DNA from: Pleurotus djamor
Lineage: Eukaryota; Basidiomycota; Agaricomycetes; Agaricales; Pleurotaceae
DNA: 64,000 nt
Direction: 5' to 3'
Assembly (NCBI GenBank): GCA_029747585.1
Contig: JAPEVF010000087.1
Coordinates: 52,971 to 116,970, forward strand
How positions within the stretch are numbered: position 1 is the stretch's first letter; each line of letters opens with the position of its first letter. Positions 1-47,361 of this stretch are shown here, in pieces. The notes beneath the pieces are model-generated. The model was not told where the DNA came from and made no database searches. It saw only the letters and a program-made list of their open reading frames with translations. Both the position numbers and the translations under genes were made by a program.

Positions 1-138
1 GTGACCGCGACGACGATCCCGAGTCCCTTTGGCAACGTCATGGATGCTCCTGACTGGCCTCCTGACGCGGTGGAGAGGACTCAGACGAGGCTGACATCCA
101 CGTCTCGAGCCTTCAACCTTGCTTTCGTCCTCCCCCTC

Positions 139-146
139 ATATATAG
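139..146 (+). promoter_or_regulatory. Possible TATA box upstream of the first gene
   Basis: The run CATATATAG lies about 75 nt before the ATG at 218, a plausible TATA spacing for a fungal promoter. This is a sequence-only call with no other support. Confidence 0.35.
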
Positions 147-217
147 CTAAGAAAGACACCCAAGGGCTGGTCCCATAATCGCCCCATCTCCCCAACCACA
201 CAATCCTAGCATCCACG

Positions 218-909
218 ATGAAAGTCACTCATTTGGCACGACAGGAGGAGAGGGACACACTTGCCATTTTAGGAGTTGCTTCTCCGTCACACAACCTACA
301 TGGTACTGACATCGCTCTGATATGTGAGTCTCCGCATATTCGCCGTGGTATTGTCGCTGAACCTTGGTGTTGTTTGTCTTTTGTTCAGGTGTCTTCGCCG
401 TTCTCCTGTGCTTCACCTTCTCGTACCTCGTGTTCTGGAAGGATCCGAAGACCCACAGGAGGTCCCGTGTGTTCCACTACTTCCAAGATATCTTTGCACC
501 CCGGAGAAGCAACCTCAGCACCACTCGCCCAACAAGGTCTAGTGGATATTGGAGGAAGGACGCCGAATCCACACTGGGGTCAGGTGAGCCATCCTTTTCT
601 AGNAAAAACCTTNGCATATTTCGTTGACGTCCATGCGTCCTTCATCAAGATGCTCATCTATCTGATATAAGTGACGTTGAGAAGAAAGCACTCGAGTGGC
701 GACAATCGACTTACAAACCTAATCTCAAAGATGGAAGGTGGCATCGGCTGATGAAGTGGCCCTCTCGGAGAGCAGCCTCGGAAGCGAAAACCATTATCCT
801 GCCGATAGCAGACAATAGAGGAGCCAGCGCCCTTAATGTTTCGCCCTCGAAGAAGTCACAGTCGCCAACTCCAATCCAACCCCTTCCCCCTGTATACTTT
901 CGGTCATGA
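218..909 (+). CDS. Hypothetical single-pass membrane protein, 3 exons
   Basis: Not recognised as a named family. The splice model is 218-323, 389-583, 650-909; introns have GTGAGT/CAG and GTGAGC/AAG borders, phases close exactly, and the product is 186 aa. A hydrophobic segment (about residues 36-50, VFAVLLCFTFSYLVF) is followed at once by basic residues (WKDPKTHRRSR), suggesting one transmembrane helix with a cytosolic basic C-terminal region. There is no signal peptide at the N-terminus. The second intron contains two N bases, so its acceptor (AAG at 647-649) was chosen because it is the one that keeps the third exon (SDISDVEKKALEWRQS...) open to the TGA at 907. The C-terminal third is rich in Pro and Ser. 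Function unknown. Confidence 0.55.
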
Positions 910-1427
910 GGCGTCGTGGGGAGGAAGAACAAGGCACTGGGGCATGTCGGTTTAGGGAATGGGTTATTTATAGATCGTCGCGTGAAGAACGTTCGTTGTT
1001 GTTGTTCCCATGCCATCGCCGCTTTTGCGATGACCGGGCGTCAGCGTTTGCGCAGGGGGGTGCACACTCGCCCATTATTAGAGATCATGTTCCCGCGTTG
1101 TTTGTGAACGGCTTGTTATTGTGCACGAACTGAAAATCATTTTTCATCATACTCTGCGGGGATCCATCAACATTCTCCGTGCCAGAATAGNAAAGTGAAA
1201 AAAAAACTTCCCGCACGCACATCAAGGTTGACAGAGTGCGGTTGGGTGACACGGAAAGATCAATGGAGGTAGACAGTCGGTTTACCCAATCAGTTCTGGT
1301 GTCCACACCGCACATGCTCCGTTCTCATGGCTGCAGATAGATGAAGGCAGAGCCGCGCCAAGTCGAAATGATAACATCAATTGAAAGAAGGCTGGTTCAG
1401 CGTTGAACGCGAGCAAGACGTAAATCA

Positions 1428-1751
1428 ACAGGTCGTCGTGGTTCCATTTACATTCCATGTGGAAACCATGCTCTGGAGGCAAATTAAGGGGTAGAGGTTG
1501 TGATGAAGACAGTGAGAAGCGTCTAAGGCGTCTTCTTGCCTATCGTCCGTCCATGACAGTATAGGCAATTGAGCACTGTGCTCAAGAGCGATTGCGTCGG
1601 AAAGGAGCGATGCGACGCTTCCATGGGGTGGCTGACTGGCAGAATCGGATTGATGGGAAGGAAATGGACTTTCTACCTCAACGTCAGAGAATAGCTGTGA
1701 GAAGGCGATGGATGATCTCAGCGAGCTATTTCCAGGTCCCAACATTGCCAT
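1428..1751 (-). CDS. Possible small Ser-rich ORF, divergent from the peptide precursor gene
   Basis: An open frame of 108 codons begins with two nearby Met codons (MAMLGPGNSS) and is rich in Ser, Gln and Pro. It has no recognisable domain. A second open frame lies just downstream on the same strand (about 1282-1482), and a CCTCCAG acceptor-like site near 1475 could join them, but I found no convincing donor. It could be the 5' part of a real minus-strand gene facing away from 1935, or chance coding potential. Confidence 0.25.
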
Positions 1752-1870
1752 GGACTCTCAATCTGCGCATAGGGAAAAATTCTCATGAAGCTCCGATTGG
1801 ATGGTAAAACGGAGGGGGAGCCCAAATCGATGGTAGCTCGGCCTAGGTCCCGAGGAACATTTGTGAGAGC

Positions 1871-1878
1871 ATAAATAG
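1871..1878 (+). promoter_or_regulatory. TATA-like box of the repeat-peptide gene
   Basis: The sequence ATAAATAG lies about 60 nt before the ATG at 1935 and is followed by a pyrimidine-rich stretch (CTTTCCTCCCCTCCCCCC) typical of transcription starts in highly expressed fungal genes. Confidence 0.45.
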
Positions 1879-1934
1879 GTTCGCAGAGGGAAACGTACCA
1901 CGCTTTCCTCCCCTCCCCCCGTTTACCTCACACC

Positions 1935-2713
1935 ATGAAGTTCACTCTCATCTTCGCGAGCCTGGCATTCGCATCGATAACTCTAGCTGCCCCAGTGGTG
2001 AGTCGGCAGACATTTGAAGATAGCTGGGTCCTGACCGTACCGTCATAACAGGAACCGAGATTCCCGGTATGCATGCCATACTAGTTTTGTCGACAGGCGT
2101 ATTGATCGAGGTCTCTTATCTGGCTAGTCTGAGAGACGCGAGGCGCTCTCAGGAGTGGTGAGTACACCTAGTGACCCTGACCGAGACGCAATTGAATATT
2201 GACGACGAATATTGCAGGCAGCCGACTGGAGGCGTGAGCCCATGTCCGGTGTTGTACGCCCATCTCCATGAAACGTGGTGCACTTGCTCATCGACATCTG
2301 TCAATAGGCTGCTGACTGGAGACGGGAGCAAGATACGTCAGATCTTGTAAGTTGGCCATCATCTGATGGAATGCCCCATACAATACTGATTAACCAACTT
2401 TGACTAGACCAAGCGCGAAGCTATGTCCGGAGTGGTCGGTTTCCCATAATCATCATCATCATGGGAGTTGACGACTGATGGGTTGTTCTTCGGTATAGGC
2501 TGCGGACTGGAGGCGTGAAGCTTTGACTGGCGTGGTGCGTTGACCTTCCACAGCCCGTATGGAGCGGTCCAGCTGAGTTAAGTGTTATCAGACTGCCGAT
2601 TGGAGACGGGAAGCTCTTTCAGGCGTGGTTAGTAGATGGCTTTTAAAGTTAACTCCGCAGCGAGCTTACCTGGTTCCTCGTCGCAGGCCGCCGATTGGAG
2701 GCGTGAAGAATGA
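1935..2713 (+). CDS. Secreted multi-repeat peptide precursor (Kex2-processed type), one repeat per exon
   Basis: Nine phase-0 exons, each a multiple of three, read out cleanly: 1935-1997, 2052-2066, 2128-2157, 2218-2253, 2308-2346, 2408-2434, 2499-2534, 2592-2627, 2687-2713; product about 102 aa. Exon 1 is a signal peptide (MKFTLIFASLAFASITLA). Exons 3-9 each carry one unit of a repeat, consensus A-A-D-W-R-R-E-A-L-S-G-V, with variants in the middle (EPMSGV, EQDTSDL, KREAMSGV, EALTGV). Every unit has one dibasic site (RR or KR), mostly followed by E-A. The pattern resembles yeast alpha-factor-like precursors (KR-EA spacer) and fungal KEP proteins: Kex2 would cut after RR/KR, a Kex1-like carboxypeptidase would remove basic ends, and a Ste13-like peptidase could remove EA, leaving peptides of the form LSGVAADW. 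There is no C-terminal CaaX, so it is not a lipidated basidiomycete mating pheromone. Exon structure is seen directly; processing is inferred. Confidence 0.8.
2128..2713 (+). repeat. Exon-borne tandem repeat ADWRRE(A)xSGV, 7 units
   Basis: Seven short exons spaced every 75-95 bp encode degenerate copies of one 9-13 residue unit. Exon sequences (for example GCCGATTGGAGGCGTGAA) are much better conserved than the introns between them, which differ in length and sequence. This suggests selection on the peptide after old exon duplication. Confidence 0.8.
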
Positions 2714-3737
2714 ACGCCCCACGACCCGACCGCAAAAGCACATTCATCCATCGATACTAGCCTGTGGCCATGCAGCCCAGGCGAAGCACACTGCAACTCT
2801 CCTTGATTTGGACTTTAGTACTCGAATAGTTGGCATGCTAGTTATGCTTTTCTTACCGTCATTCCTTTTGGGCACAAGATTCTCTTTGCTTTATCCTTAT
2901 GTTTCTTCTTTGTACTGCGTTCAATGTAGTCAGTGTCGTTCCTTCGTTCAATCAATCGCAATTTCCCGACTACGACTGCGCACTATTCCAGAGGAAAATT
3001 TCTCGCCTGGGGTGAGATCCAACGCTAATCGGGTCCAAACAATCCCGAACAGTCCCACAACGGTGGACGCCAAAGCGGATATCAGTGGCTGCAGTGTGCC
3101 ACTGTGAGATTCTAGTCAGTTGGGCAGGCACCTAAAACGGGAGTCGTACCTTGTCCACGGAAATAAGCCGCGTTGGCTTTAGAAATCGCCGGCGGACTGT
3201 AAAGTCCTGTCCTATCCATACCGCATGGGCCATTCCAAATGACCGACAAAGTCGCATAACGTAAGAGTGACGCGGTTTACTGCAAGTTCGAGATGCTCCA
3301 AACTTTATGGATTGGTCCTTTTTCCAAGGTTATGGTCGAGGTCAAGGGCTTTAGCTCCATCAGCTTCGCATTTCCCTTGAGTACCTGCGTTAATTGTCAT
3401 CGTGGGATGCTAGCAAGAGAGACTGAGGTACCTCTCCCGTGCCCCCTTCTGCCGAGGTGGCGAGGATCTGTCCGGGATTCGGGAGAGTCATGTTTAGCAC
3501 GACATTATCGCAAAGTTAAGCCCTAGGGCGTCGGGACGATTTTGCAAACGATGCTTCCATCGACAGCCACAATGTTTTACGTCATAGATGAACGGCCTAT
3601 GTCGCGTAGATGATATCTACGGAGCACGAGATAATCAGTGTATCTTTGGAAAGCTTCAACGCACCAGTCATGAGGCATTCGGAATGTCGAGCTATAAATA
3701 AGTATCATTGAAGTGAAGGGCTCTACATGGAAGCTAC
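2714..3737. other. Intergenic region, no supported gene
   Basis: About 1 kb between the peptide precursor and the convergent carboxypeptidase gene. Open frames here (for example 3293-3526, +) show no recognisable motif or splice-supported extension. It probably holds the two 3' ends. Confidence 0.5.
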
Positions 3738-5718
3738 CTAGAATGAGGTAGTCGCATTAACACTTATTGGGACGTCAAGTATCCACCGGTTAATTAAATC
3801 CTATGCTGCATGTCAGACAGTATTCCCAGAGGATGTGCTATTATAACTCACAAATGCTGCGTCGGCTTGATCGTATGGAACCATATGTCTATAAATGAGA
3901 CGGGTGACATGAGTAGGGAAATAGCCATTTAGATAGTGACGGGGTACTCACCCCGCATCATAAACGTTAACGAAGGTGACATTCCCTGCAGAGAAACCGG
4001 CGCCACCAGCGCTCCGAACCTCTCCTGCGATTCGGCCAGAGGAGGCAGTAAGCCAAGGGATAGCTTTCGCCTTGTTGAACTCCTCGCGGAATTGACTATC
4101 CAACAGTTCAACCCAACGCTCGTTTCCCTGTAAAGTAGAGCGTTTAGCTTGTCAACGGCGTGGGTGGACACTCCGATGACTCACAATGTAGTTACACATG
4201 GCATCTAGCCGTCCAAGTTGAGTATACAGGGTTGAAAGAGCATGTGTAGTAACTCACCAGCGTTGCCAGCATAAACGAGGAGCCGAACACCGTCGTTTAC
4301 AAGCTCAGGAAGAAGCAGCGCGCTGTTATGCATACCATCACCTTGGCCGGTGAATGCTCTGTTGACTTCCATATTGCATGATTCGAAGTCCATGGATGGA
4401 TTTACGCCAAGCTCTGCCTTGTGTGACGGGTCATTCATCCAGGTTTCGATCCACCCCATTTGCTTGTAGCACAACTCGCCGTCCTTGGATCGGTCACATT
4501 TTACGCGAACGTCGTAAGGATTCAGACCAGATTCTGTCACAGCAGATACGTGAGCATAGGTAGGGAAGAGGGGAACGAGTGGCACTTACGGAGGAGAGGG
4601 GAGAATAGTTGTGTGTTGCAGTAGATGATAGCGGGCATGCAGGTAAACCGAGAGTTGAACTTATAGCAACTGTTGATTAGCCGTTGGCATGTTGGGATCT
4701 TTGTGCGAAGAGAGGCGCATTGAGGGCCGTCGGTGTCGAAAACCGGGAATGGGCCGTCACAGAGGTAGTCAGCGATGGATCCCATTTGGGTATATGGGTC
4801 AGTAAGGCCGTTGGCCAATATGACAGACGCAAGGTTGATGCGCCGAAGTCCAGGAGTGGGCGCCACGCTAAGTTGCTTATTCTGCTTGTGGATGAGGTTG
4901 GCAAAGTTGGGGGCGTACGTGCCGCCGTAGCTTTCTGCAGCGATGTGGAATGGGACATCGGCGTACTCTGGGAAACGGTTGAGGAAGAGTTCGAGGAAAG
5001 CGTACACATCGATGGCTGCCGCAGGAGTATTGTTCACGGTAGAGCCGTCGTCGGAGTAGGAGTAGCCGACATTGACAGGTTGGTCGAGGAAGATGATATT
5101 GGCATTGGTGTTCCAGCTGTTAGGGTTGAACTTGGTGCCTTGCCCATTGTCTGCGATAGCGCAAGGACCAAGCTCGAATAGCAAGCCAGTGGTTGAGCTA
5201 CAGCCTGGGCCCCCATTGAGCCACAAAATCAGCGGGGCAGTTTCGGGTGAATTGCGAGCCTCAAAGAACCTTATGGAAATGACTGATTAGGTTGAGACTG
5301 CTTCAAAGACAGGAGCCGACTAACCAGAAGAACAGATGTTTCGAGTCTGAGCCATCAAGATAGCCCGAGTACTGCTTGACAGAGGGATCACATAACTTTG
5401 GCTTCGAAAAGCGCAACTGATAATCATGGAAGTGAGGGTGTGAAACCAATTCATCTACGAGCCACCGTGTCAGTTTCGCGCCAAGTAAGCATAATATGAT
5501 GGACGCGTACAAAGAAGGCCATTCTGCTTGATGTACTCCTTCCCTGAGTGGAACCATGTCTCCAACTCCTGCTTTCCAGATAGGATGGCCTGTGCAGTCG
5601 CGTCCACAAGGCTTCCAGGATTACTGAGGGTCGACGCGCTGAATACAGCTTGTTCTTGAGTGGGGAAAGCGGCAGCAAGCTGCAATGCAAGCAAAAGGAA
5701 ACTGAGGATGGCTTTCAT
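3738..5718 (-). CDS. Secreted serine carboxypeptidase, peptidase family S10
   Basis: Eight exons close in phase: 5511-5718, 5325-5454, 4590-5269, 4258-4533, 4185-4204, 3952-4127, 3852-3888, 3738-3800; product about 529 aa, normal for the family. A signal peptide (MKAILSFLLLALQLAAAF) is followed by a pro-like region. S10 hallmarks are present: LCDPSVKQYSGYLD, the oxyanion-region motif WLNGGPGCSS, the nucleophile motif AESYGG, the acid region VYAGNADAMCNYIGNERW and the His motif GHMVPYDQ. The acid region reads AGNAD where carboxypeptidase Y has AGDKD. Such enzymes remove C-terminal residues in the vacuole, secretory route or outside the cell. It lies between two peptide precursor genes with KR/RR sites, so C-terminal trimming of those peptides is an attractive but unproven role. 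It resembles CPY-type enzymes more than Kex1, since no C-terminal membrane anchor is visible. A 20-nt micro-exon carries DAMCNYI. Confidence 0.92.
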
Positions 5719-5947: not shown

Positions 5948-7109
5948 TCAAACGCGGGGACGGGGCTTCTGCTGACGCGGAGGAGAAGGGGGAGGAGTGG
6001 GAAGACCTCTGGCCATGCAGTTTTCGACACATTGCTGCCATCCGGCTTGAGTTAATTGACCAGCAAGCACGAGCATAGTACAAGCTCCTTCACATTCAGC
6101 GCGCTGTAGAATTCTATGAGCATGTCGGACACCACAGTCGTTAGTAGAAAAACGACTCACGGTGGCACGTTTGGAGAGCGCTTCCTCGCCAACGGAGCGC
6201 CTGGCTTTCTTTCCAGCCTTCTGACGGGGAGGAGAAGGGGGAGGGGTGGGAAGTCCACGGGCCATACAGTTCTCAACGCAGTTTTGCCATCCGGCTTGAG
6301 TGAGTTGACCAGCGAGGACGAGCATCGTGCAGGCACCCTCACACTCAGCTCTCTGTAGGCATGGGTCGGATGAGTCATACGGAGTGATTGGCAGGAAGTT
6401 TCGAGTAACTGACGTTAGCACGCTTCGACAGAGAACCTTCCTCCTGTGAGTCAAGAGAGCGACCGCCCTTTCGTCCGGTACGTGGTGGAGAAGGAGGAGG
6501 AGTCGGGAGACCACGAGCCATACAGTTTTCAACGCATCCTTGCCATCCGGCTTGAGTTAATTGACCAGCGAGCACAAGCATGGTACAAGCGCCTTCGCAC
6601 TCAGCGCGCTGCGAGTGTGGATGAGTATGAGCTTGTGGAACGGAAGCAGAGACATGACTGACGGTAGCACGCTTCTCTACGGAACGAACTTTCTTCTTGC
6701 CTCCCTTTTGACGTGGAGGAGAGGGAGGAGGCGTAGGGAGGCCACGAGCCATGCAGTTCTCAACGCAGCCTTGCCATTGAGCCTGAGTGATGGAACCAGC
6801 GAAGACAAGCATAGTACAAGCTCCTTCGCACTCCGCTCGCTAGAGGATAGTCAATACACTGAACAAGGTGGAGAGGATGTGGATACGCACCGTAGCACGT
6901 TTTTCGACGGAGCGAACTCCTTTCTTCCCACCATTTTTCGTTGGCCTCTGTCCGTTTTGTTGAGGGAGGGGAGCGGGCGCAGGAGGCGGAGTCGGTGGGG
7001 GCGTAGGCAGTCCGCGAGCCATACAGTTCTCGACACAGCCTTGCCATTGAGCTTGCGTGATTGAACCAGCGAGGACGAGCATTGTACAAGCTCCCTCGCA
7101 CTCGGCACG
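5948..7109 (-). repeat. Five tandem exon-encoded cysteine modules
   Basis: The five repeat exons are 219, 177, 195, 192 and 156 nt. The core from AEC to PPP is almost invariant. Modules 1-2 share SITQAQWQG, while modules 3-5 share QLTQAGWQ(G/N/Q), so the array has two subfamilies and grew by exon duplication. The tails (Pro-rich and basic) vary most. Confidence 0.85.
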
Positions 7110-7336
7110 CTGGAGTTGGGTATTAGATGAGAAGATGTCTGAATGTCAAACGGGCTACGTACAGTAGCGCGTTTCGCCAGACTACTAGTATAGTCGGCTT
7201 CCTCAGCACTGTTGAAATCAATGAATGAGTTCGTCATCGGGACCATTCACAAGATGGATACGCACATTGGTGAGGCAAAGACGTCAGAGACCTGCACAAG
7301 GACTGCGAGGACAATGAATTTCATCGAAATTTGCAT
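5948..7336 (-). CDS. Secreted precursor with five CX3C-X16-CX3C cysteine modules, one per exon
   Basis: Seven exons: 7266-7336, 7163-7208, 6891-7109, 6663-6839, 6414-6608, 6161-6352, 5948-6103; product 351 aa. Exon 1 is a signal peptide (start Met1, or Met5 MKFIVLAVL). Exon 2 is a short leader ending SSLAKRAT. Exons 3-7 each encode one module with the same order: RAECEGACTMLV, a variable helix, WQxCVENCMARGLPTPPPSPP, then a basic Gly/Lys/Arg linker ending VEKRAT or LSKRAT. Each module has four Cys in the pattern CX3C-X16-CX3C, as in helical hairpin (alpha-hairpinin-like) peptides with two disulfides. A KR sits at the end of the leader and of modules 1-4, so Kex2 cleavage would release five ~50-70 residue peptides starting ATRAEC or ANRAEC; further KK and RR sites in the linkers suggest more trimming. 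Introns between modules fall at the same phase-0 point after the KRAT/KRAN codons. Function unknown. Confidence 0.85.
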
Positions 7337-14102: not shown

Positions 14103-15043
14103 TCAACCCACATTATACCACGCATAAGACGTCTTATCCGCAGCGACAGAGCGCAGTTGGTAGAAGCGCATGCCAACGAACACCCCGAGCGCAACGACAA
14201 CCAGGGTGATTGGAATATGTGTATCGACAAGGAAAGAAAGAGCAATCGACCAAAGCGACAACGCGACGGGCATTGAAACTCGGCCAATAGTGGGAGCGAC
14301 AATGGGTATTGTTCGCCGCCCTTCAATCCGATCGCCTGCTTCATCGCGGAAATCTTGGGCATGGATAGTGGTGAAAATGATGAATGAGTTAAGTATCCCC
14401 CAGAAAACAATTCTCGAGGTAAACTCTGGGCTGCGTTCTGGGGCCAAAAGTGGTTTGTCTAGGTGGATGAGAAACTGAGAAGCAAGCTTACCTTCTCCAC
14501 AAGCTATCAACGCGGCGCCGATATCAAAGAGGGCGTACGCAAAAGCATTGAGTAAATTCCGAGTAAACCAATGGGAATCGAAGCCGAATTCATTGTGCAA
14601 AGCGATGCAGATTGATAACATGCTGCTGAGAGTGGAGGTGCCGTAAGAGGCGGATATGACGACGCAGACGGGGACTAGAAACCATCGAAATATAGCTGCT
14701 GCACGGCTGGTAAGTCTGCCCGCAGGGATAGGGCGCCATGGTTTATTGATGGCGTCTTCTTCTGGGGCGATGATTTGGTTTGACACGCAAAACTGCAGGA
14801 GATGTAGCCATGTCCAAAACACCGTATGAAGAATGTTTGTGACCGAAAGGGTTTTGGCCGCGAGCAACGCCGATATGGTCTAGTATTTTCAAGTGAGTGT
14901 AAGTTCACAGACCAAGATAGAACCTTAGAAGTACAGACAATAGGAGCAAGAATTGTCTTGACGTCGGATTTGATAAAAAGGTAGATGGTGTACGAGTGAC
15001 GAATAACGGCGGGAGTCCATGGTCGATCATCAAGCGTTAGCAT
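14103..15043 (-). CDS. UbiA-family membrane prenyltransferase / terpene cyclase-like protein
   Basis: Three exons (14939-15043, 14492-14879, 14103-14437) give 275 aa. After FIKSDVKTILAPI come several hydrophobic segments, the first Asp-rich region SNQIIAPEEDAINKPWRP (an NQxxxxEEDxxNKPWRP pattern) and the second region TTIHAQDFRDEAGD (DxxxxxD type). This combination is found in the fungal UbiA-type membrane terpene cyclases, such as the bergamotene synthase of fumagillin biosynthesis, and in related prenyltransferases. The substrate is likely a prenyl diphosphate, with cyclisation or transfer in an internal membrane. The 54-nt intron 2 is in frame and lacks a stop, so it can be misread as coding (KLASQFLIHLD...). 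A divergent P450 and an aldo-keto reductase follow within 5 kb, supporting a small terpenoid pathway. The exact product cannot be told from sequence. Confidence 0.82.
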
Positions 15044-19857: not shown

Positions 19858-21145
19858 AGGTGATGGTTTGAGGGCCGGTGTTAAAGTCTTGAAGGGCCAG
19901 CTACAGCCGGGCCTTTATGTGGTGATACACATTGCGGGTCCAAGTTGTGGCATTGCCACTAAGATTGGCTTCTCTTGCGAGACGTACAAGTCCTGATAAA
20001 AAGCATAAGGTACTTTGATGACGACAAAAATAATTTCCCACTGACCCACATAATAGCCACCTGGTTGTGCGCATCGATCTCAAGCCGGTTCATCAATGTG
20101 ATGTCACTTCGTTTTTAGTCCGTCTTATAGACGTGCGGACAGCCTGCTTTTCCTTAGATAGTCGCGGCTCGCGGCACCCCTCATGTGAAAAGACTCGGAG
20201 CTGAAGGAGTTCTAACTTCTAAGGGTAGTTGCGCCGGCCTCTTAAACTCGATGGGTAGGGATGGTGTTGTAGTATGTGATTCGAGTCGATGCTGGAAAGG
20301 AAGAGAAACCATGCGTCGTTAGCGAAAGGCGAAGGGCATGAGAGAGTCAAGCCTGTGAGTGCGCACCATAAGGACCTCCATGTAGACATACACACGTACA
20401 CATACACCTTCAAAGGACCCTCAGATAGTCTGAAGCATTTCGCAACTTCGCATGGCTCAGGAAGCGTTGACTCAGACTTCGCAACGATGCCCGTTCGACA
20501 TGTAGACAAGGATCACTCAATCTTTGAGGGGTATAAGTGTCGCTGGAAAACCTTTCAGATGGGTTGTAAGATCTGAGTACTGAGTTGTGCAGGACGAGTG
20601 GCGGTCGAGCGTCGATGATGGTGGTGGGCACTGAGTACTGAGTACTGAGTACTGAGATTTCAGAGTCGGACAGGGGAGAACGCGGTCGCGTGACTGACGT
20701 CCATGTTGTCACACGGGATCACTGGTCACGTTAACCATCGGGAAACGGCTGCTCCGAATGGGCTACGAAGGTCTCAGACCCAAACGCGATTCCTCGTCAT
20801 TGACTACGGCGTGCATGTGCATCTAAGTGTGCATCAACAGTCCCAGTGGTAAGTGAAAGCCTTGTTTTGTTCCTTAATGACACAGACTCACGTTTGTGAT
20901 GTTGCTAGATTGGACTCTCTGGAGGATCTGATACTTTGACGTCGGGGGGACGATGTTTTCGAGGTTCGCAGGAATTGATGGCGACTTGACGCCTTAGAGT
21001 CCCAGTTCGCCCCGCTTCCATATGCCAAGTGACACAGACCGTATCGATCCACCACGGTATCAGTATAGGAAAACATGCCTTCAGCATGCGTTTGGTATGT
21101 ACCATAGTACTAAAGGGTCAACGATTCGTCTATCTTACACTAACC
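19858..21145. other. Intergenic region, no supported gene
   Basis: It contains the upstream regions of the aldo-keto reductase (-) and the HET gene (+). The only distinct feature is the short tandem repeat at 20631-20656. Confidence 0.45.
20631..20656. repeat. Short tandem repeat (CTGAGTA)n
   Basis: Nearly four copies of CTGAGTA lie head to tail, each with an AGTACT palindrome across the unit border. Another isolated copy begins near 20573. Confidence 0.8.
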
Positions 21146-22957
21146 ATGGCCGTCTACTCCAGACTACCCTCCTCGCGGAGCACTCGCATCTTAACATTCG
21201 CCCCAACTCCCCCCTATGCTCGCGATGAAGCCGTCTACTGCTCAATGTCCATCATCCCTTCCATCGACGATCCAGAACCCTACTACGCCCTCTCCTACGT
21301 CTGGGGCGACGCAACCACCAAGCAACACGATCTCATCTGCAACGGCCGTCTGATGAAGATCACATACAACCTGTGGATGGCTTTGAAAGCGATACGGGCC
21401 AAGGCTCCGTCGGTTAGGCTATGGGTGGATGCGATATGCATCAATCAAGAGGATGTTCCAGAGAAGAACAAACAGGTCGCGATGATGGGTAGCATTTACT
21501 CTGGTGCGGATCGTGTTATTGTTTGGGTGGGGGAGGCTACGGAGAGGACCAGCGACTTCTTCAAGGCGGTCGATATCGTTGCTTCGGGGCATCAGCTTAC
21601 TCTGAACAACTGTCCGCGTCCTGGACGTGGATCACGATGGGGGTATGACGATCAACGTAGTATCACGTCATACCTACTTGATTGCGGCGACGATATTGCT
21701 GAACGACCATGGTTTGAGCGTGTGTGGACATTCCAAGAAATTCGCCTGGCGAAGAATGCTATCCTCCATTGTGGTCCTTACACAGCCAATATGTCGGATG
21801 TCGTCCGCACCGCTCATCAAATCAATCTATGCAGTCAAGGCCTAGACGTTTGCGGAGCGCGAACTGTCGACGTCAAAATGTTCGCCCCAGAGAACATGTT
21901 CAGCTCCCTATTTCGTTTACTCGCCCTCACTCAGAATCGCAAAGCCACGGACCCGAGAGATAAATTCTTCTCCCTTCTCGGCATGCTCCCTCCCCATCTT
22001 TACCAGTTCATCAAGCCTGACTACAATCTGACGAAGGAGCAGGTGTTCGCGTATGCGTGTCGGATTTGCCTCGAGCTGGATAACGACACGAATATCTTGG
22101 CTGCTGCTGGGTTGGATGATTTGCCCATTGAATCACGGTCTCCTCGAACACGTCCTCGGAGGAGCAGGGATCTACCATCGTGGGCCGTTGACTTTAGTGT
22201 CTTCAACGATGAGATTTATAGTCTTCAGAATCTGTCGAGACATCTGGATATCACCGACAGGAATGAACTGAAAGCCCGGTATAACCATGGGAAGCGCCTG
22301 GACCCACACAGCAAGACGATCGGAATTACTGGTGTTGCTGGGGGACGGTTCACGGTCGATGCGAGGGATCGGGTCATCTACCTTTCAGAGTATCCGGCAT
22401 GCACTTTGGCGTCACAGTCTGACTCGGAGACTCTAGATCTTGGGATTCGCATTTCGGAGGATGGGCTATTCGACTTGTGGGAGGACTTACGGATGCACGA
22501 TGAGGGGCGGTGTGATTGCTTCGCACAGGCTTCTACGTTGGCGTATGAGTGGTCTGGCGTGCCTTCGAGTATCCAAACGGGTGATTGGCTTTGGACGACG
22601 AGACGCATGGACGCGGTTCCGCCGCCTGATCGCTCACGGGGAGAAGATGGTCGGATACGAGTGCGTAAAGGCGACGATCCATTAGCTGCATCATCTGGGT
22701 ACGCGATGTACGATCCCGAGGTGTATGACCTCGTTGACGACGATGAGTATGATGCGGAGGAACTCGAACGTGGGGAAGAGGACGAGACGCCGGATTATTG
22801 GTATGTCATTCGGCCGGTGCATGGAGAGGAGCCGTGTTTCCAGCTTGTTGGGAAGGTGAACAATAGGTATGCTGGGATTGGATCTCAGCGTAGGGTTGTT
22901 GGGGACACGACGTGGAGTCCGTTCATGCAGATCCAGGCGACGTTTACTTTTGTGTGA
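21146..22957 (+). CDS. HET-domain (heterokaryon incompatibility) protein
   Basis: A single uninterrupted frame. I chose the Met at 21146 (MAVYSRLPSSRSTRIL); an in-frame ATG at 21029 would add 39 non-conserved residues. The three HET blocks are clear: YYALSYVWGDA, LWVDAICINQEDVPEKNKQV and the WFERVWTFQEIRLAKNAILHCG segment. Downstream is a non-conserved region with DPRDKFFSLLGML, also typical of HET proteins, and an acidic C-terminal stretch (residues around DLVDDDEYDAEELERGEEDE). HET domains trigger cell death on non-self fusion in ascomycetes; in basidiomycetes their role is less clear. It is one gene away from a NACHT-WD40 protein in the same orientation, a pairing that fits allorecognition or defence. 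Confidence 0.9.
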   Translation: MAVYSRLPSSRSTRILTFAPTPPYARDEAVYCSMSIIPSIDDPEPYYALSYVWGDATTKQHDLICNGRLMKITYNLWMALKAIRAKAPSVRLWVDAICINQEDVPEKNKQVAMMGSIYSGADRVIVWVGEATERTSDFFKAVDIVASGHQLTLNNCPRPGRGSRWGYDDQRSITSYLLDCGDDIAERPWFERVWTFQEIRLAKNAILHCGPYTANMSDVVRTAHQINLCSQGLDVCGARTVDVKMFAPENMFSSLFRLLALTQNRKATDPRDKFFSLLGMLPPHLYQFIKPDYNLTKEQVFAYACRICLELDNDTNILAAAGLDDLPIESRSPRTRPRRSRDLPSWAVDFSVFNDEIYSLQNLSRHLDITDRNELKARYNHGKRLDPHSKTIGITGVAGGRFTVDARDRVIYLSEYPACTLASQSDSETLDLGIRISEDGLFDLWEDLRMHDEGRCDCFAQASTLAYEWSGVPSSIQTGDWLWTTRRMDAVPPPDRSRGEDGRIRVRKGDDPLAASSGYAMYDPEVYDLVDDDEYDAEELERGEEDETPDYWYVIRPVHGEEPCFQLVGKVNNRYAGIGSQRRVVGDTTWSPFMQIQATFTFV

Positions 22958-24844: not shown

Positions 24845-27800
24845 ATGGCTCGCTCTCAGCAGAGAAGAAAACGTATCGACGATCTGCTCTGCGCTTCTGT
24901 GACTATTCTAAGCCAGGCCGAAGGGCCTCTGACTCTTGCGCCGATTCCGGGATTATCAGTGGCAGCAGGTGCTTTGCTGCAGTTAGTAGAGATGGTCCAG
25001 GTGCGTGCGGTTTCAGGTGTCCTGTTCTCATAACGTGCCACTCACTTCGTGGAAGAGAACCAGGAGTAATAAAGAGGAATTCCTCCATCTTGCACAGAGT
25101 CTGAAATCGCTCGCGACCTTCCTGGAGTCCACAACAGCCAATCTCCAGTCGCAGATAAGATGCGACCCAAACGCTCAAATCACCATTGCAAGCTTACAAC
25201 GATCTCAAGATCTCTTGGGTCGCGTCAAGCAACTATCTGAGTATGTGGCTCTCAGATTTAGCCGTGCATAATGATGACACCGAGATCCGACCAGTGATAT
25301 TGTTACTATACTTAGAAAGGGACAAGAGGTGCTTGAGGGAGGTATAGTAGCACGCTTCTTTCGAAGCAACAGCGATGCAGCAACCCTTCAGTCATTAGAC
25401 AAAGACATTCAACAAGCACAGTCACGTTTTAAGGTATGTGTAACTATGTATCTACAGGCTATCTAACGTACATATTGCTGTTTAGCTCCAAGGAACTGTT
25501 ACCATCGAAATGATGGTGAATGAACTCATCGCAACCACGCAAACAACAGAGCTGGAGCGCCAGCTTGGTAAGCTTCATACGGTTGATGCTGGGTACAGAG
25601 CACCTGTCAATGCTCGGAAGAGTCGCTGGGTGGACGGGACAAGGACACAACTACTGCATGATATCGTAGAGTGGTCGCGAGGTCACGGAACGGACGAGGC
25701 TCGTGCAAACGCAAAGATCTTTGTCTTGACTGGAGGAGCGGGAACTGGGAAGTCGACGATCGCTGTTCAAGTCGCAAAGATGTTTGATGAAGCAGGAGTA
25801 CTCGGTGGATCTTTCTTTTTTGAACACGGCGTTGAAGAAATTTCATCTACCAGATACGTCTTTCCTACCCTCGCCGTTCAGCTAGCTCGCTTGCACAAGT
25901 ATCTGGCGCCATCCATCATCAAGGGGATTGCGAAGCATCAAGAAAAAGGGAATACTCAGAATTTAACCTACGCTCTAGATGAATTAATTGTCGAGCCTTT
26001 GTCAGAGATTCCCGAGAATCAACGTCCGTCACGACCACTTGTCTTCGTTCTCGATGCCCTCGATGAATGCAATGAACAGGATCAAGTCCCAGGCTTACTT
26101 TATCTCCTCCTCAAGCGCATGCGATCCCTCCGTTTCCCCCTTCGCCTGTTCCTCACCTCTCGACCCGAATATCACATCCAGGATGCTTTCGAATCGGTTG
26201 AATGGGAATCCGAGCCCAAGCCATTTCAGTTAATGTCCATTGCCACAAACATCGTACGCGACGATATAAGACATTTCTTCAACTCTCGGTTGACGGAAGT
26301 GGGCATCGCCGAGAAGCTACTCACAGTCAGAGATGATGCTGTCGAGAGGCTTGTTGATGCTGCCGGGGGTCTTTTCGTATACGCATCCACTACGATCGAG
26401 TTTCTCGCTCGTTACAAGGACGATTTGGGCGAAACGCTGAAACTTGTCATGGAGTACCCGCTGAATGATAGCAGTCTAGACGCACTCTACGGCATCGTCC
26501 TTCGCAAGGCTTTCTCCGAAAATGATTTCCGCCATCGTGACCTGGGTCCGTTGATACCCACAATTCTTGGCACCCTCGCCGTGCTTCAAGATCAACTTCC
26601 TCCCGAACCCCTTTGTAATCTCTTACAGATTAGACTTCCATTACTCATTGGTGTACTCCGTCGTCTTCAATCGGTATTGATCTTTGGTTTCAACCAACCA
26701 ATCCGTTTACTCCACGCCAGTTTCCCTCAATACCTGGTGGATCCAAGGCGGTGCCACCTTCCCAATATCAGTGACCATCCCTCCTTTCGCGGAAACGATC
26801 CACTCGCAATTCGATGCCTGGATATTTTGCTCGATGTTGGTTCCCTGAAGAAGAACATATGCAACCTTGAGGACCCGCTTGTCTTTCGAATGGAGATTCC
26901 GGATTTGAATGAACGTCTAACACGTTCGATTCCACCTCATGTTCAATACTCATGCCTTTACTGGGCCTCCCACCTGTGCAAATCCACATCATCACCCGAG
27001 TTGACAAGCCTGTTAGGGAAATTCACGGAGACAAAAATGCTGCCTTGGATGGAGGCTCTAGGGATGCTCGGCCGGATCGACGCTGCTGTCTCCATGCTCT
27101 CCAGGACCTTACATTGGTACAAGGTAGATCAATGTCTTCATCACTGCGACCTTGTCTCAACCTTCACATCATTAGATGGATGACAAAACAAGATTGCTTC
27201 TCAATGATGGCTATCGCTTCATTCTGACTTTTCTGGACGCCATCAAGTCATGCCCGTATCAAACCTATGTTTCCGGACTTGCCTTTTCCCCTACGAGATC
27301 CCTTCTTCGGGTAGTGTATGCACATCATCTTTCTATTGTCGATGCACTGGCTGGTCCAGATGAAGGTTGGGGAGCATGCTTGCGGGAAATGGAACATCAT
27401 AGGCATGATGCAAGAAGTGTCATGTTCTCTTACAACGGCCAATGGATTGCTTCTGCCGGTGTGGGTGGGGATGTTAACATCTGGGATTCTGCCAGCGGAC
27501 TCCTTGTCCGGACACTTTCTGGCCATACAGATAAGGTTCATGCCGCCGTATTCTCTTCCGATGACAAGACTATCGTCTCTGGATCTAAGGATAGGTCAAT
27601 CAGGATCTGGAATACTGCTTCTGGAGCGCCTTTGAAGGTCATTAGCTTGGATGCGCAAGTTATGCACATCACTTTATTGCCCGCAGCACCGAAGTTGGCC
27701 CAGAAGATTGTTGTAGTCCTTAGCACACTCTTGGATCCTGGACACCTACGCCCGGGTTCTAAAACTATGTTCTTGGATTCTAAAAGTGTATTCTCAACCC

Positions 27801-29113
27801 ATGTTCTTGACATTGATGGCCACCTCCTCAGGACACTCTCCCAAGGACTCGATGTCATCCACCCACCCAGGCCCGATTGTTCGATAGACAGCAAGTACCT
27901 CGCCGTCCCTGAAAGGGGAGGTATCACCATCTACAATGCAAGTACATATTCTGTCTGGAAGGAACTTGTTGGCCATGAATCTCACGTTTACGACGTCAAA
28001 TTTTTATATCGCTCTGAATCAAACGGTGAACCAGACCTCCTTGTGTCAGGTTCCTTGGATACTACAATACGACTCTGGCAAATACAAACACAGACGTGCA
28101 TACATGTCTTCGAGGGACACTCTGGAAGCGTGGAAACTATTGCGATTAACCCTCTGAAAGGTCTCATCGCCTCAGCTGCAGATGATAAGGAGCTACGTCT
28201 TTGGTCATATAAGGAAAAGACCTGCGTTTCCACCCACTGGACATCCCGCAGTATCACGAGCCTGTCTTTCTCACCCAACGGTGAGTATCTGGCATCTGCC
28301 AGCGATTCGCGTTTGCTCCACATTTGGGACACCAATGATCGATCTTTCCCAGAGGTGCCAGTGAACTGGTTTACTTCACCAGGTTCCATCTTACCCATGC
28401 CAGCAGACTGGATCATCTCGCCGGATGGTCGATTCATGGTCGCAATGGTTTCAATGACAGAAGCAGAACTATGGTCTACCCGAGATGGCCGACTTGTGAC
28501 CAGTGTCCACATCGCGGCATACAGTCTACATCAAGATTCATTGGCGACACCCAGCGGAGATGATCCTTGGGTGGTCCTGTTTGCAGCGCATTCATCCGCC
28601 TTTCTGATCAATATCATGACCCTGGAGACATCTTATCAACGAAAGGTCAATCCTCTGCTTCGCAACGCAGTCAGGCGAGGTTTTTCTTCGGACGGGCAAC
28701 TTATCTACCTCCTCGGCGACACGTTCGAAGATGGTGCTCGAGTCAGACACTGGTATCGCCTTGACTGGAATTCTCAGGAAATTGCACGTGTAGAAGAAAA
28801 GGATGTCCCGCCAGAGTCTTGCAGCCTTAGGCGTCCTCAACACCGATATGTAGAAGAGGAGGGCTGGTTGGTGGATCAATGGGAAAACAAGCGTTTATGT
28901 TGGATTCCGCCTGTGGTCCGAGACAATTCGGGGTATCGGAGCGGGTCCTGTTGCTTATACGATGGCTCTCCTACAGCGAAGTATTTCTCCATCAACAAAC
29001 GTCAGAACTTCATGGTTTTAGCCTTGGAACATAAAGGGAAGGGGCCAGAAACGGATGAGTGGCGTAGAGTTTCTGATTGTATACAAAGGGTGCTTGGACG
29101 ATGCCAGAGATAG
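24845..29113 (+). CDS. STAND NTPase with NACHT and WD40 repeats (NLR-like)
   Basis: Five exons (24845-25000, 25056-25240, 25316-25433, 25486-27123, 27176-29113) give 1344 aa. The first ~180 residues are helical, with a GLSVAAGALLQLVEMVQ segment common at the start of agaricomycete NLRs. The NACHT domain has Walker A GGAGTGKST and Walker B LVFVLDALDECNE followed by FLTSRPEYHIQ. The C-terminal half has WD40 repeats (GHTDKVHAAVFSSDDKTIVS, LLVSGSLDTTIRLW, FEGHSGSVETIAINP, SFSPNGEYLASASD), not highly identical, so this is not one of the fast-evolving high-identity arrays. The intron at 27124-27175 separates two long frames that otherwise look like two genes; splicing joins HWYK to MDDKTRLLLNDGYRF in phase 0. 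Likely an intracellular sensor of non-self signals. Confidence 0.92.
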
Positions 29114-33807: not shown

Positions 33808-35457
33808 TTAAATGCAGTGTCCTGTTGGAGCAGTAGATCAACATAAAAAAAACCTGATCAAATTCAACAAAGGATGTACTTACTTTTCTCGTTGGACATG
33901 TCGGGTGTATCCATATCCTCCGCGGGTCGCTTCTTCCGTATAGAATTTGTTGTAGTTAGATATCGTGCCTCGACGGGTGGACCGGTTGGAGGAGCTGTAT
34001 TCGTTACAACCGCGAGTACACCTTCCCTTGTCTCACTCGCACGCCAATCCATCATCGTCCGATCCATGCCCACGACACGCCCACCCCTACCACCAGCTCT
34101 ACCACCCAGACTCACATCCTGTCCTTCCTCCCGGAACCGCCACACATACTTAACTAAAATCCTCTGCATCGCCTCATGTAAATGACATACACTCGGTTCT
34201 GGAGTGAGCAACGCATATTCCGGACGTACTTGGGCGGTCAACTCCTTAACGACGGAAGCGACAAACGATAGGTCGTGATGGAGGATTTTAGCCCAGGGAA
34301 GGGGGGTGAATATCGGGAGTGTGGGATCGAGCAGCATGTCATCATCTTCATCGTTGATGGTACTGGTGACTTGGTGCGTATCAAGCAATTTCCAGATCTT
34401 CTCGAACCGACCATAATTCACATCCTCCTTCTCTTTCTCCACCGTATCCTTATGCTGAGGAACTGCTTGGAGGAGCGCCACGAGGAGACACCAGAAAACC
34501 GATTCGGCAGCATATCGAGGGTGGTGTTTGACGTTTTCGAAGTCCTCCGAGGCGATACGTACGCGTGAGCCCTCATTTTCATCTGCGCAGTACGCTTCGT
34601 GTTTCTCGTAATCGAAGAACGTTCCATGACGTTGTGTGGTTCCTGGGAGGTCGTTTAGAGTGCGTAAGGGATCGTTGGGGAGTTGGTGTTGGTAGGCGGA
34701 GAGGTAAGTAATACGGAGGTGGTCTGGGAGGTTGGGCATGTGTGGGGGGTGGGTGTTTTCGAAGAGGATGCGGCGGAGGGTGAGTCCGCGTGCAGTGTAT
34801 CTGGGTGTTCCCTACATGAAGGAACAGATTCAAGTTAGCGAGTGGGGAAGGGGGAATCGACGACTAGTGCCATGAGGACGGGGGATGGGGCGCACCATTC
34901 GTTCGTGGATTTGTGCCGAGCCATTTGTGGCGATGTCAAGGTCGTTGATAAGTGTGAGTGTATCGTAGTCGGTGGGATTGGTTCTGTGCGGCCACAATTC
35001 AGTGGAGAGTTCAAATATAACTCGAAGCCAGAGGCGTACCCAGAAAGAACTTCTCCGATATATTTTGGACGATCGTCACCAATGAGCTCGTAAGGCTGCC
35101 TTTTGCAAGCGTAATCGGGGTCTGAGTCGATCAAGACGCTTCGGGTACTGATATCCCGATGAAGTAGGTGTGTCTTTCTAACAGAGCATCGATGAGCTGA
35201 TCCAACGAGGGAGAAGTCAGCGAGACGGAAGAAATCTAGAAAGAAAGAACAAGGTTCTGACCTTCCAAGACGTCGTACATAACCTCAAACAAAGTAACCA
35301 CGGTAGGGCATTTGTACAGAGGGTCGCTGGACAGTGATTGCACGACGCGTGACCTTGGTCGGATATCGACATAAGGTGGTGCGGCGAGATGAGCATCAAG
35401 GGTCGTTGACAGCTCCTTCAGCACGCCGGGCCCAAGTTCCTCAGGTTTGCACTCCAT
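33808..35457 (-). CDS. FunK1-like fungal protein kinase
   Basis: Exons read by frame and splice sites: first exon down from the ATG at 35457 (MECKPEELGPGVLKELSTTL) to DVLEG; then HRCSVRKTHLLHRDISTRSVLID to GEVLSG; then TNPTDYDTLTLINDLDIATNG; then GTPRYTARGL through HHPRYAAESVFWCLLVALL, 33884 being the end of this long exon; last exon 33808-33821, giving RHCI-stop. The HRD catalytic loop (HRDIS), the DLD metal-binding motif (INDLDIA) and the GTPRYTA activation-segment end are typical of FunK1 kinases, a family expanded in basidiomycetes. The residue usually Asn in HRDIS-xx-N is Ser (TRS), so full catalytic activity is uncertain. An upstream minus-strand frame (about 35603-35866) may be a further 5' exon, but I could not close its phase. 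Confidence 0.8.
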
Positions 35458-42992: not shown

Positions 42993-44282
42993 GGTGACAA
43001 TGGGGACTCAGTGGTATGTACCTCCGTCTTCTCTAACAGTGCTGCCGCGCGTTTACTCAAAGTCATCTCCTTTTCTTCAACATGGGATTAACCAGTAACG
43101 TACCCGATCCCTTGGTAGCTCACGACCTTTACCATGTGGATTACTGTGTCTGTTTCCAACGTAGAAAGAATATTTCAGTCGGTTCCCTCTTCGAAGTTCG
43201 CGCTGGCGAAGCCGTCCTCAACTACGACATCCACCTTTCTCGATCAACCGAGGATGCGTTCCTCGGCTCTGCATCAAAGGATAAACTTCCCTATAAAGTA
43301 CAAACATGAGTCATGAGTGGAAAGGCTCAAAATCAAGACCAGCGGCGTAGGATGCCATGGGTTCTGGTTATCTTATCTTGATAGACGCTCAACGCGTCTA
43401 GGGCCTAGCTCCGTCTTGAGCGCTTCGGCCCGGGCGACCCCTTCCTAACTTGTTTCTAACTTCGAAGACCTGTTCCAACTTTCTACACGCAGCGCTGTTG
43501 TCCTTCTTGGAAATTGAGGTCGTACTTCAAATAGAACGCTGAACGTTCCCCTACTTACCTGTATCTCCGTGAGTATGGCACTCCAATTTCCTTCTCGACC
43601 TCGAAGGCTTTTCATGCTCAACGACTCAATTCAGTAGGCGATATAAGCTTGCATCATCTGTAGAGAAGCACAAGTTAATGGCTCAGAAAGCGGTCGCGAA
43701 TAATGCTTGGGATGCGCTCTGCATCCCGTTACATTTGATGAATGCATTGACATCGACGGGTGATTGACTTCGTCGCCAACATGACTTGAAGGGTGTGTCA
43801 GTTGAACACTGTGTGACTGTACGGGATGTACTGCACAACAATCACCCGACATCTGGTCGCAACCAGGAGCAATCTCCCCCCCCCCCCCCCCTCACATTCG
43901 ATGTAAGCCTTATAATGTCTCATTCCCACCCATGTGTAGTGACACCTCGTCTCCAGTCCGGCCTGCCCCATGAGACCCGTTGCTGCGAATGTCATGTGTC
44001 ATGATGAACATTTCCCGCAAGACATCATTCTCAGTCTTATCTCTCTTGCACAAGTCCGAGTCGTTTTGACGAACGGCGATCCCGTCGATATTACCCGTCC
44101 CATCAAGAAGTTCAATGTTTCCGAACGTCTTCATCATCTATCTGCTTCCCCTGCCTATTCCAATTAACCAAAATCCGTGAACTTATAAGCCGCCTATGTG
44201 TAAAGTATGACCCCGCTTTCCCTATTTACCTACCTTCTCGAATCTCCAACCCTTTCCATTACCCTACAGGCAGACTCTACAC
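42993..44282. other. Region without a supported gene
   Basis: A frame at 43082-43309 (+), reading MGLTSNVPDPLVAHDLYHVD, is open but has no recognisable motif. The rest has only short frames and a C16 homopolymer. Confidence 0.4.
43876..43891. repeat. C16 homopolymer
   Basis: Sixteen consecutive C. Length is probably unreliable in the assembly. Confidence 0.9.
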
Positions 44283-45373
44283 ATGCAACACACAGACGTG
44301 GCTTTCAATAAACTTCAATTGAGCACGGTACGCCTATCTCGTCTTCATGCGACGTCCCTGATCTCCCAACTAATTTATTCTAGTGTTTTCATGGTATGCT
44401 CGAGCTCGCCTGGCTCCCTTGATTCAGACCAATGACGTACTCACAGTCTCCGCGATCGCGCTCTTCGTAAGTGACTTTGCTCTTATCCGCTTGAACCTGA
44501 CTTACCGGCCACTGCGCTGAGAGATATACGAGTACCTCCTGACCGTTGGCGACGAACTCAGCTACGTGTGGCATCGTCCTATTCGCTTGGGACGCGTATT
44601 ATATGTCCTCAATCGGTACTCCGCATCCGTTGGGCTGATATTCAGTCTACGGAGTAGGTTCCTTCTCCTTCATTCTGTGGAATAGACTAGCTTCCTTTTA
44701 CTCACAGACTGCCTGGTTCACAGTTCGGATGATGATAGGGCCCGTGAAGCGTCAATGCGAACTCTTCGTTAATTCCACGACAGGTGGGTTCCTCCCTGTC
44801 GGTATGGTTAACTTCGTTGTCACCCGTACTTCTGTCCGTTTTTCACAGGACTGTTTTTCTTTGGATACGTCGTCGCAGAACGTATGTTCCATTCTCCCTG
44901 TCCTGGCCGTGGACGTCCTGACCTCCTTATTACAGTTCTCATGCTTCTTCGTGTCTGGGCGTTTTGGGGACGCACGAAGTTTGTGACAATATTGCTCTCC
45001 GTTCTCTGCGTAGTCTGGGTTACTGTTGCAGCGGTCATCTTCGCTGAGGTCCATGGCCCGCTCAGCCAAGGCAAGTGGTCCATCCCTTGTGTCTGTAACC
45101 GCGAATGGAGNCCCCCCACTTTCAGGCTTAGCTGGCGTACTAAACGACCCCTTCGTCCCGGGCTGTCCGCTCATCTCTGACCCGAAAATGGAACTGATCC
45201 AGTATGCCATGGTCTGCGCGCTCGAGACATGTATGTCCAGTCCCACTCCCCAAGTTAGCCTTGATGTCTCATCGTCATTTTCCTTTGCGTCTTCAGTGAT
45301 ACTGGTGCTGATCTTGGCTCAGTGCATGGGTCACGCCCAGCGAAACCGCTCGACCCTGTTTGCGTCGTTTTAG
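44283..45373 (+). CDS. DUF6533-like fungal membrane protein
   Basis: Exons 44283-44327, 44384-44393 (10 nt), 44447-44466 and one from 44524 read MQHTDVAFNKLQLSTCFHVS then AIALFIYEYLLTVGDELSYVW, the characteristic DUF6533 start (YxYLLTxGxExxYxW), followed by RPIRLGRVLYVLNRYSAS. Later exons give ELLMLLRVWAFWGRT, a hydrophobic VVWVTVAAVIFAE segment, GCPLISDPKMELIQYAMVCA and ILVLILAQC. The join between the NRYSAS exon and TAWFTVRMMIG is unresolved (phases do not close), and the last exons are uncertain: a TAG at 45371 ends this model, but GVFYFLAVLG at about 45440 is a conserved end that suggests more exons. One intron (donor GCAAGT after LSQ) appears to be GC-AG and contains an N. Function of the family is unknown. 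Confidence 0.7.
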
Positions 45374-46098
45374 GGTGTGACTTGGGGCTCCCATGTCTCA
45401 CATCTTTGAGTGCTCACACCTCATGTGGTGTGTTATAGGTGTATTCTACTTCCTCGCCGTGCTCGGTCAGCCTTTCATCCTTTCATTCTCTTTCGACGTT
45501 ATTGAAGCTGTGTCCGTTCCACAGCTGTTTCGGTTACGAACGTTGGCATGATATTGACCAAATTTGTTCGTGCCAATCTTTTCGGTCTCTTCCTACTGAG
45601 GTTTTGCACTTACTGAGACTTTTCATCAAAGGATGATGGCTTGGATATGATAACGTCGCAAGTCTTCTTTCCTTTACTTGACGCATTCGAGTTCTTACAT
45701 CACATTTCTTAGGCTGCAGAGGGAATTACAGGCGATCCTGGTCGGGCGGATGTTTCTCCAGCTTCGTAAAGGAAACAGCGTCGTCGGGAGACCTTCATCT
45801 TGCGCGCAAATGCAACAATTGTCTCGCACAGCAATGTCACCCGTTCGATTTAGGCATTCTTTACGAACGCCTGAGCACATAGGCACTGCCACTACTGATA
45901 TGCCTTGACTAGAGTCAAGAACCAATGGTCCCATGACTTTCTCGCTACCATTAGATGATACTGCGCGTCTGTTTTTAGGCAAACCCACCACAATGAACAG
46001 CCCTTGCACTGCGAGCACTGCGTCATCGCCTTGCTCACTCTTATAAAGGACAGTGATTTTAGTGCTATCAGACTCACCTTTCATCGGGGATGTCTACC

Positions 46099-47153: not shown

Positions 47154-47361
47154 TTCACCAACGTAAAGCTCAATATATCCGCCTTCTGGGGTCTCATGAT
47201 CCCATCAACTATAAAGGGATACAAGGAAGTATTCTTGACCACCTTCAGGCCAACGAGAACAGCATTCGCTTCTGGTCAACTTCTTGGATTAGCCTGAGTC
47301 TGCGCTCGAAAAAGGGGGATCACATGCTCGGTAGTTTCCATATAAAATCTGGATTTACGCC
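47154..47361. other. Short spacer before repeat copy B
   Basis: Contains the 3' flank of the 251-residue protein gene. No other feature seen. Confidence 0.4.

Follow-up and report, generated by a model that had tools for sequence, protein, structure and literature searches.

A probable alpha-pheromone-like KEX2-processed repeat protein gene in Pleurotus djamor, divided over nine phase-0 exons

A gene on the + strand at positions 1935-2713 of the window (the whole stretch of Pleurotus djamor DNA that was analysed, 64,000 nucleotides in length) very probably encodes a KEX2-processed repeat protein (KEP) that is alpha-pheromone-like, belongs to a type already known from oyster mushrooms, probably corresponds to P. 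ostreatus KEP 1091723, and gives rise to linear secreted peptides that are used outside the cell. The gene itself is real and well formed; its expression and processing in P. djamor, the peptide LTGVTADW, and a biological role are what we infer from it. The finding extends a peptide family already detected in edible mushrooms by a member of the P. djamor type, provides exact masses to look for (computed [M+H]+ values of 818.404 for LSGVAADW, 836.361 for MSGVAADW, 862.431 for LTGVTADW and 705.320 for SGVAADW), and shows that a KEP gene can be spread over very small exons behind a leader exon. New here are that member itself, the prediction of LTGVTADW, and the exon layout, the like of which was not found in the main texts of the open-access papers searched; the word 'exon' is absent from the main texts of Vogt 2022, Umemura 2020 and Le Marquer 2019, and 'intron' occurs in them 1, 0 and 0 times, respectively.

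Exact string matching of nine phase-0 exons, joined across eight introns, yields a protein of 102 amino acids that reads MKFTLIFASLAFASITLAAPV-EPRFP-SERR-EALSGVAADWRR-EPMSGVAADWRR-EQDTSDLTKR-EAMSGVAADWRR-EALTGVTADWRR-EALSGVAADWRR-EE. The lengths of all nine exons are multiples of three, the spliced frame is open over the full 102 residues, and all eight introns (54-64 nt in length) run from GT to AG and contain a branch-point-like motif. The exons behind the leader exon carry 15-39 coding bases, and the leader exon and an EPRFP exon are followed by seven small ones (exons 3-9), in keeping with an earlier note on the same DNA that had described seven tiny phase-0 exons. The parts of the gene are as follows.

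Exon 1, 1935..1997, + strand: start codon and secretory leader MKFTLIFASLAFASITLAAPV (leader judged by eye)
Exon 2, 2052..2066, + strand: EPRFP, 15 nt
Exon 3, 2128..2157, + strand: SERR, then EALSGV (core 1, first half)
Exon 4, 2218..2253, + strand: AADWRR (core 1, second half), then EPMSGV (core 2, first half)
Exon 5, 2308..2346, + strand: AADWRR (core 2, second half), then spacer EQDTSDL
Exon 6, 2408..2434, + strand: spacer TKR, then EAMSGV (core 3, first half)
Exon 7, 2499..2534, + strand: AADWRR (core 3, second half), then EALTGV (core 4, first half)
Exon 8, 2592..2627, + strand: TADWRR (core 4, second half), then EALSGV (core 5, first half)
Exon 9, 2687..2713, + strand: AADWRR (core 5, second half), EE, stop TGA
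Eight introns, 1998-2051, 2067-2127, 2158-2217, 2254-2307, 2347-2407, 2435-2498, 2535-2591 and 2628-2686, + strand: GT..AG

The spliced precursor contains five AADW/TADW cores and one spacer unit, EQDTSDLTKR; the description of its units as variants of one core therefore holds for the former and fails for the latter. Seven dibasic sites (six RR and one KR) divide the protein and are followed mostly by EA, as had been claimed (EA four times; EP, EQ and EE once each). EA or EP precedes each of the five cores, corresponding to the XA/XP signature of Ste13 action after a Kex2 site, and similar units repeated and parted by KR, RR or KK, by which a KEP is recognized, make up the array. The N-terminus bears a hydrophobic stretch, MKFTLIFASLAFASITLA, read by eye as a candidate secretion signal. 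The C-terminus is RREE, without the CaaX box that characterizes a-type pheromones, just as the earlier note had stated.

According to the proposed mechanism, the nine-exon transcript would be spliced and the leader would take the precursor into the secretory pathway; a Kex2-type protease would cut after the RR and KR pairs, the basic residues would then be trimmed by a Kex1-type carboxypeptidase, and EA or EP would be taken off by a Ste13-type dipeptidyl aminopeptidase. The predicted products are LSGVAADW and MSGVAADW (two copies each), a single LTGVTADW, and possibly a peptide from the spacer. Such peptides would most likely be linear and secreted, and would act outside the cell, as signals or in encounters with other organisms, and not in mating. 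Elsewhere in the genome, a DPP IV N-terminal domain marks a DPP IV-type gene on contig C480, and a convertase P-domain match adjoins a subtilase frame on contig C222, where one frame of the convertase gene had no PDB match; that P-domain match is the one found in the genome, as against the three KEX2 genes of agaricomycetes (Vogt et al. 2022, PMC9769878).

The peptide core is not new, because the same peptides have been published from two oyster mushrooms, and a novel core family was thereby ruled out. In fruiting bodies of P. ostreatus, LSGVAADW, MSGVAADW and SGVAADW from KEP 1091723 were identified by LC-MS/MS, and in those of P. eryngii MSGVAADW and SGVAADW from KEP 1439342, with synthetic standards matched in both cases (Vogt et al. 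2022, PMC9769878). The authors of that study pointed out the Ste13 signature and the common -AADW end, and regarded their finding as the first sign that STE13 is active in a basidiomycete (PMC9769878); a 2023 review restates the Pleurotus peptide finding (PMC10417677). The prediction of LSGVAADW-type peptides and of a layout of the Kex2/Kex1/Ste13 type thus finds support in published precursors and peptides (PMC9769878). The judgement that the precursor was 'new-looking' and belonged to no named family does not stand: PleosPC15_2|1091723 is already listed as one of six basidiomycete alpha-pheromone-like precursors in Umemura 2020 (PMC7329392), citing the earlier survey of Le Marquer et al. 2019 (PMC6339444), in whose main text Pleurotus does not appear, so that the link to 1091723 runs through Umemura 2020. 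Both LSGVAADW and MSGVAADW, as reported from KEP 1091723, are encoded by the window gene, and the suggested orthology rests on these identical core peptides. As regards function, six KEPs of C. cinerea have been knocked out with no apparent phenotype (PMC9769878).

Several rival explanations were weighed, which are not mutually exclusive with this one. It is quite improbable that the repeats function while still part of the secreted protein, whether intact or only partly processed, as in a surface material like Rep1 of U. maydis, with free peptides as by-products; Rep1, itself a KEP, yields peptides that assemble into amyloid-like fibrils (PMC9769878), but free seven- and eight-residue peptides have been quantified in related species (PMC9769878).

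A cyclised RiPP precursor of the dikaritin/ustiloxin type, in which UstYa-family modification would follow Kex2 cutting, is very improbable. The layout of a leader plus dibasic repeats is held in common with dikaritin precursors, the genome contains at least 37 exon-level UstYa matches, and a DUF3328 gene has been reported near 103 of 1680 basidiomycete KEPs (6.1%) and near 17 of 76 (22%) homologues of six alpha-pheromone-like basidiomycete KEPs (Umemura 2020, PMC7329392). Linear peptides are nevertheless favoured for the present gene because none of the UstYa/DUF3328 matches (at least 37) lies on the window's own contig, C1273 (117 kb); in addition, its cores contain no Tyr, and the P. ostreatus and P. 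eryngii peptides, which match synthetic standards, are described as linear (PMC9769878). Linearity is not a rule of alpha-pheromone-like KEPs as a whole, given the 17 of 76 homologues with DUF3328 nearby (PMC7329392). As a separate observation, UstYa (DUF3328) matches occur on other contigs, including C47, C340, C453, C612 and C685, with several per contig on some, and may represent RiPP-type clusters.

That the gene encodes a true alpha-type mating pheromone, acting via a Ste2-like receptor, would be compatible with its status as a KEP, and its architecture, with EA or EP ahead of every one of the five cores, is that of ascomycete alpha-factor precursors. This role is nonetheless most improbable, since the mating pheromones of basidiomycetes are a-type (Le Marquer 2019, PMC6339444; Vogt 2022, PMC9769878) and a Pfam scan of the precursor at E <= 1 produced no pheromone family, its sole match being YABBY at 12.3 bits, below the cut-off of 28.6. 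A search for STE2 gave 0 matches in the genome, as it did in all 14 control genomes, so that this absence is unproven; STE3, searched for in the same way, had 41 exon-level matches.

Of 4064 candidates in a protein search with the spliced precursor, two were listed at E <= 10, namely P. pulmonarius AB1N83_008212 (P0001; E 1.5e-12, 54% identity over 99% of the query) and an ENA protein, P0002 (E 4e-4). The P. pulmonarius protein is a homologue, which resembles the product of the window gene in its similar leader, its EA/EP signatures and its three SGVAADW units (RR comes after two of them, RG after the third), and differs in its length of 105 residues, in the extra units ahead of its cores, and in that single core followed by RG. 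This homologue also supports the splice joints of the window gene. Its tail (residues 95-105) could accommodate one more LSGVAADWRR if read in another frame; tails compatible with SGVAADWRR arose so seldom by chance (2 in 20000 shuffled tails, 0 in 20000 random ones) that the public P. pulmonarius model AB1N83_008212 probably carries a frame error. An interpretation of the same tail as the sign of a missing core-splitting intron in P. pulmonarius was dropped, since introns have already been spliced out of the P0001 model. In P0002, six ADW units stand in a single run after what seems to be an unspliced first intron following API, and this protein hints that core-splitting introns may not be universal.

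A profile built from the precursor and those two relatives listed 10 of 7997 scored candidates, of which two were its own members. Among the rest are proteins that contain (A)DW(K/R)R or comparable units, from Amanita thiersii, Ramaria rubella, Collybiopsis luxurians and Leucocoprinus. The lower end of this list is weak (E up to 7.8), and scores of this kind can be inflated by repeat composition. No P. djamor-named protein for the precursor was among the matches listed in either search (2 of 4064 and 10 of 7997, respectively); the neighbouring carboxypeptidase of P. djamor (ONZ45_g18075) is present in the same protein collection. KEP surveys conducted on predicted proteomes may undercount, because no P. 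djamor-named precursor was listed and because the P. pulmonarius model shows an apparent frame error.

At the level of DNA, the repeats of the precursor are visible in a repeat search as two families, D1 and D2; Tandem Repeats Finder does not report them as one array, as is to be expected when introns stand between them. An ADWRRE-like codon pattern is matched exactly at 11 places in the 55.9 Mb genome, as compared with 1 for a reversed control, and 10 of the 11 fall in two copies of the precursor gene; the eleventh reads ADWRSE because the degenerate pattern admitted AGY. A narrow pattern of DWKR plus acidic residues gave 0 matches genome-wide, and other KEPs may still occur. No RNA families were found in the window at gathering thresholds.

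The second copy of the gene lies inverted at the start of contig C1273, which matches itself, in inverted orientation and in three pieces, over 1-22489 versus 56726-33453 at 95.6, 94.6 and 84.5% identity; in bins of 500 bases, identity is 96-99.8% at C1273:48,001-56,500 and an uneven 84-97% at 43,501-48,000. Between the two copies, the exons differ at 1 of 309 positions, silently (2504 G/T, in exon 7), and encode an identical protein, and the introns differ at 14 of 470 (Fisher p = 0.007 for exon versus intron), with all eight GT/AG splice ends kept. In the flanks, 23 of 1934 bases upstream and 8 of 1043 downstream differ over window positions 1-3756, and three indels come in addition; because the flanks are themselves fairly conserved, the contrast that speaks for constraint is between exons and introns only. 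The inverted near-copy may have arisen because both haplotypes of a dikaryon were folded into a single contig: a genome search gave at least two copies of the gene and just these two were found, and contig C635 starts with a 99% match to window 6882-7246, past the copy break at window 3756. Against folded haplotypes, the assembly offers nothing nearly identical to window 33864-35284 beyond that stretch itself, the only match being one of 79% on contig C365; the near-copy may instead be a true inverted duplication.

Chance or a decayed pseudogene, to which the very small exons and a donor at 2435 (GTCGGT) that deviates from the usual GTRNGT might point, is a negligible prospect given the near confinement of the ADWRRE-like pattern to this gene in 55.9 Mb, the same protein and intact splice ends in both copies, and the homologue in P. 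pulmonarius.

The organization of the exons departs in one respect from what had been claimed for it, namely that each repeat occupies its own exon. The seven small exons exist, but every core is built from two of them: five introns (2158-2217, 2254-2307, 2435-2498, 2535-2591 and 2628-2686) cut the cores at SGV^AADW or TGV^TADW, a sixth (2347-2407) splits the spacer at EQDTSDL^TKR, and the first two precede the array. Since the introns sit inside the peptide cores, no exon encodes one whole peptide; since all exons are in phase 0, each of exons 2-8 could be dropped singly without a frameshift. By computation, skipping exon 4 removes one unit cleanly while a complete LSGVAADW core remains, and skipping exon 7 or exon 8 would create the hybrid cores MSGVTADW (computed [M+H]+ 866.371) and LTGVAADW (832.420), respectively; skipping exon 5 or 6 would fuse a core to the spacer, and skipping exon 3 would lose the first half of core 1. 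Retention of an intron was computed to introduce an in-frame stop in seven of the eight cases, intron 8 being open but frame-shifting. It is conceivable, although quite doubtful, that the phase-0 core-cutting introns form a splicing cassette, by which regulated splicing could determine how much peptide is made and which peptides these are, including peptides encoded by no single repeat. As a matter of arithmetic the layout leaves room for splicing to alter the peptide mix, as the earlier note had suggested; its use by the fungus is unsupported. Growth of the array by recent duplication of an exon plus its intron was also considered and found unconvincing (28 intron pairs, best z 2.33 against shuffles).

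The gene that faces the precursor is convergent with it and ends approximately 1 kb away; it is not part of the precursor.

3738..5718, - strand: carboxypeptidase Y-type serine carboxypeptidase (Peptidase_S10), 8 exons, 529 amino acids by hand splicing

Its identification as Kex1 was rejected after PDB comparison (354 bits for CPY versus 130 bits for Kex1), and its main exon had no NCBIfam match; it is considered an ordinary neighbour unless synteny proves conserved. The product differs from P. djamor ONZ45_g18075 (P0070) at 1 of the first 350 residues and is approximately 72% identical to P. ostreatus P0013, which places the genome in P. djamor or a species very near to it. From residue 351, ONZ45_g18075 follows another frame and ends early, through either a model error or a real difference. 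Further frames and repeats observed in the window are the following.

5948-7246: diverged copies (69-91%) on contig C819, both strands, a multi-copy family; its frame 5948-6556 had no Pfam match
14103-14879, - strand: UbiA-type prenyltransferase frame
20990-22957, + strand: HET-domain frame
25486-27183, + strand: NPHP3_N/NACHT frame, adjacent to the next
27176-29113, + strand: WD40 repeats, which together with the preceding frame we take to be NLR-like

Among known systems, the closest to the window gene are P. ostreatus KEP 1091723 and P. eryngii KEP 1439342, from the same genus as judged by the neighbouring gene, with like dibasic sites and XA/XP signatures; a TGV/TADW core, the EQDTSDLTKR spacer and the exon layout seen here are not mentioned for them in the abstract, the sections on shiitake and oyster mushrooms and on heterologous expression, the discussion or the expression methods of Vogt et al. 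2022 (PMC9769878). KEP 2599 of Lentinula edodes, whose peptide SGTGEASAADW has been detected in fruiting bodies, has a core that likewise ends in -AADW but differs in its N-terminal part (PMC9769878). Dikaritin (ustiloxin-type) precursors share the arrangement of a leader and Kex2-separated repeats, and are set apart from the present gene by its lack of a UstYa match on the contig and of Tyr in the cores. The alpha-factor precursors of ascomycetes likewise combine a leader, Kex2 sites, Ste13 dipeptides and repeated cores, an architecture that the P. djamor precursor, with its putative leader, resembles without a match to a Pfam pheromone family at E <= 1.
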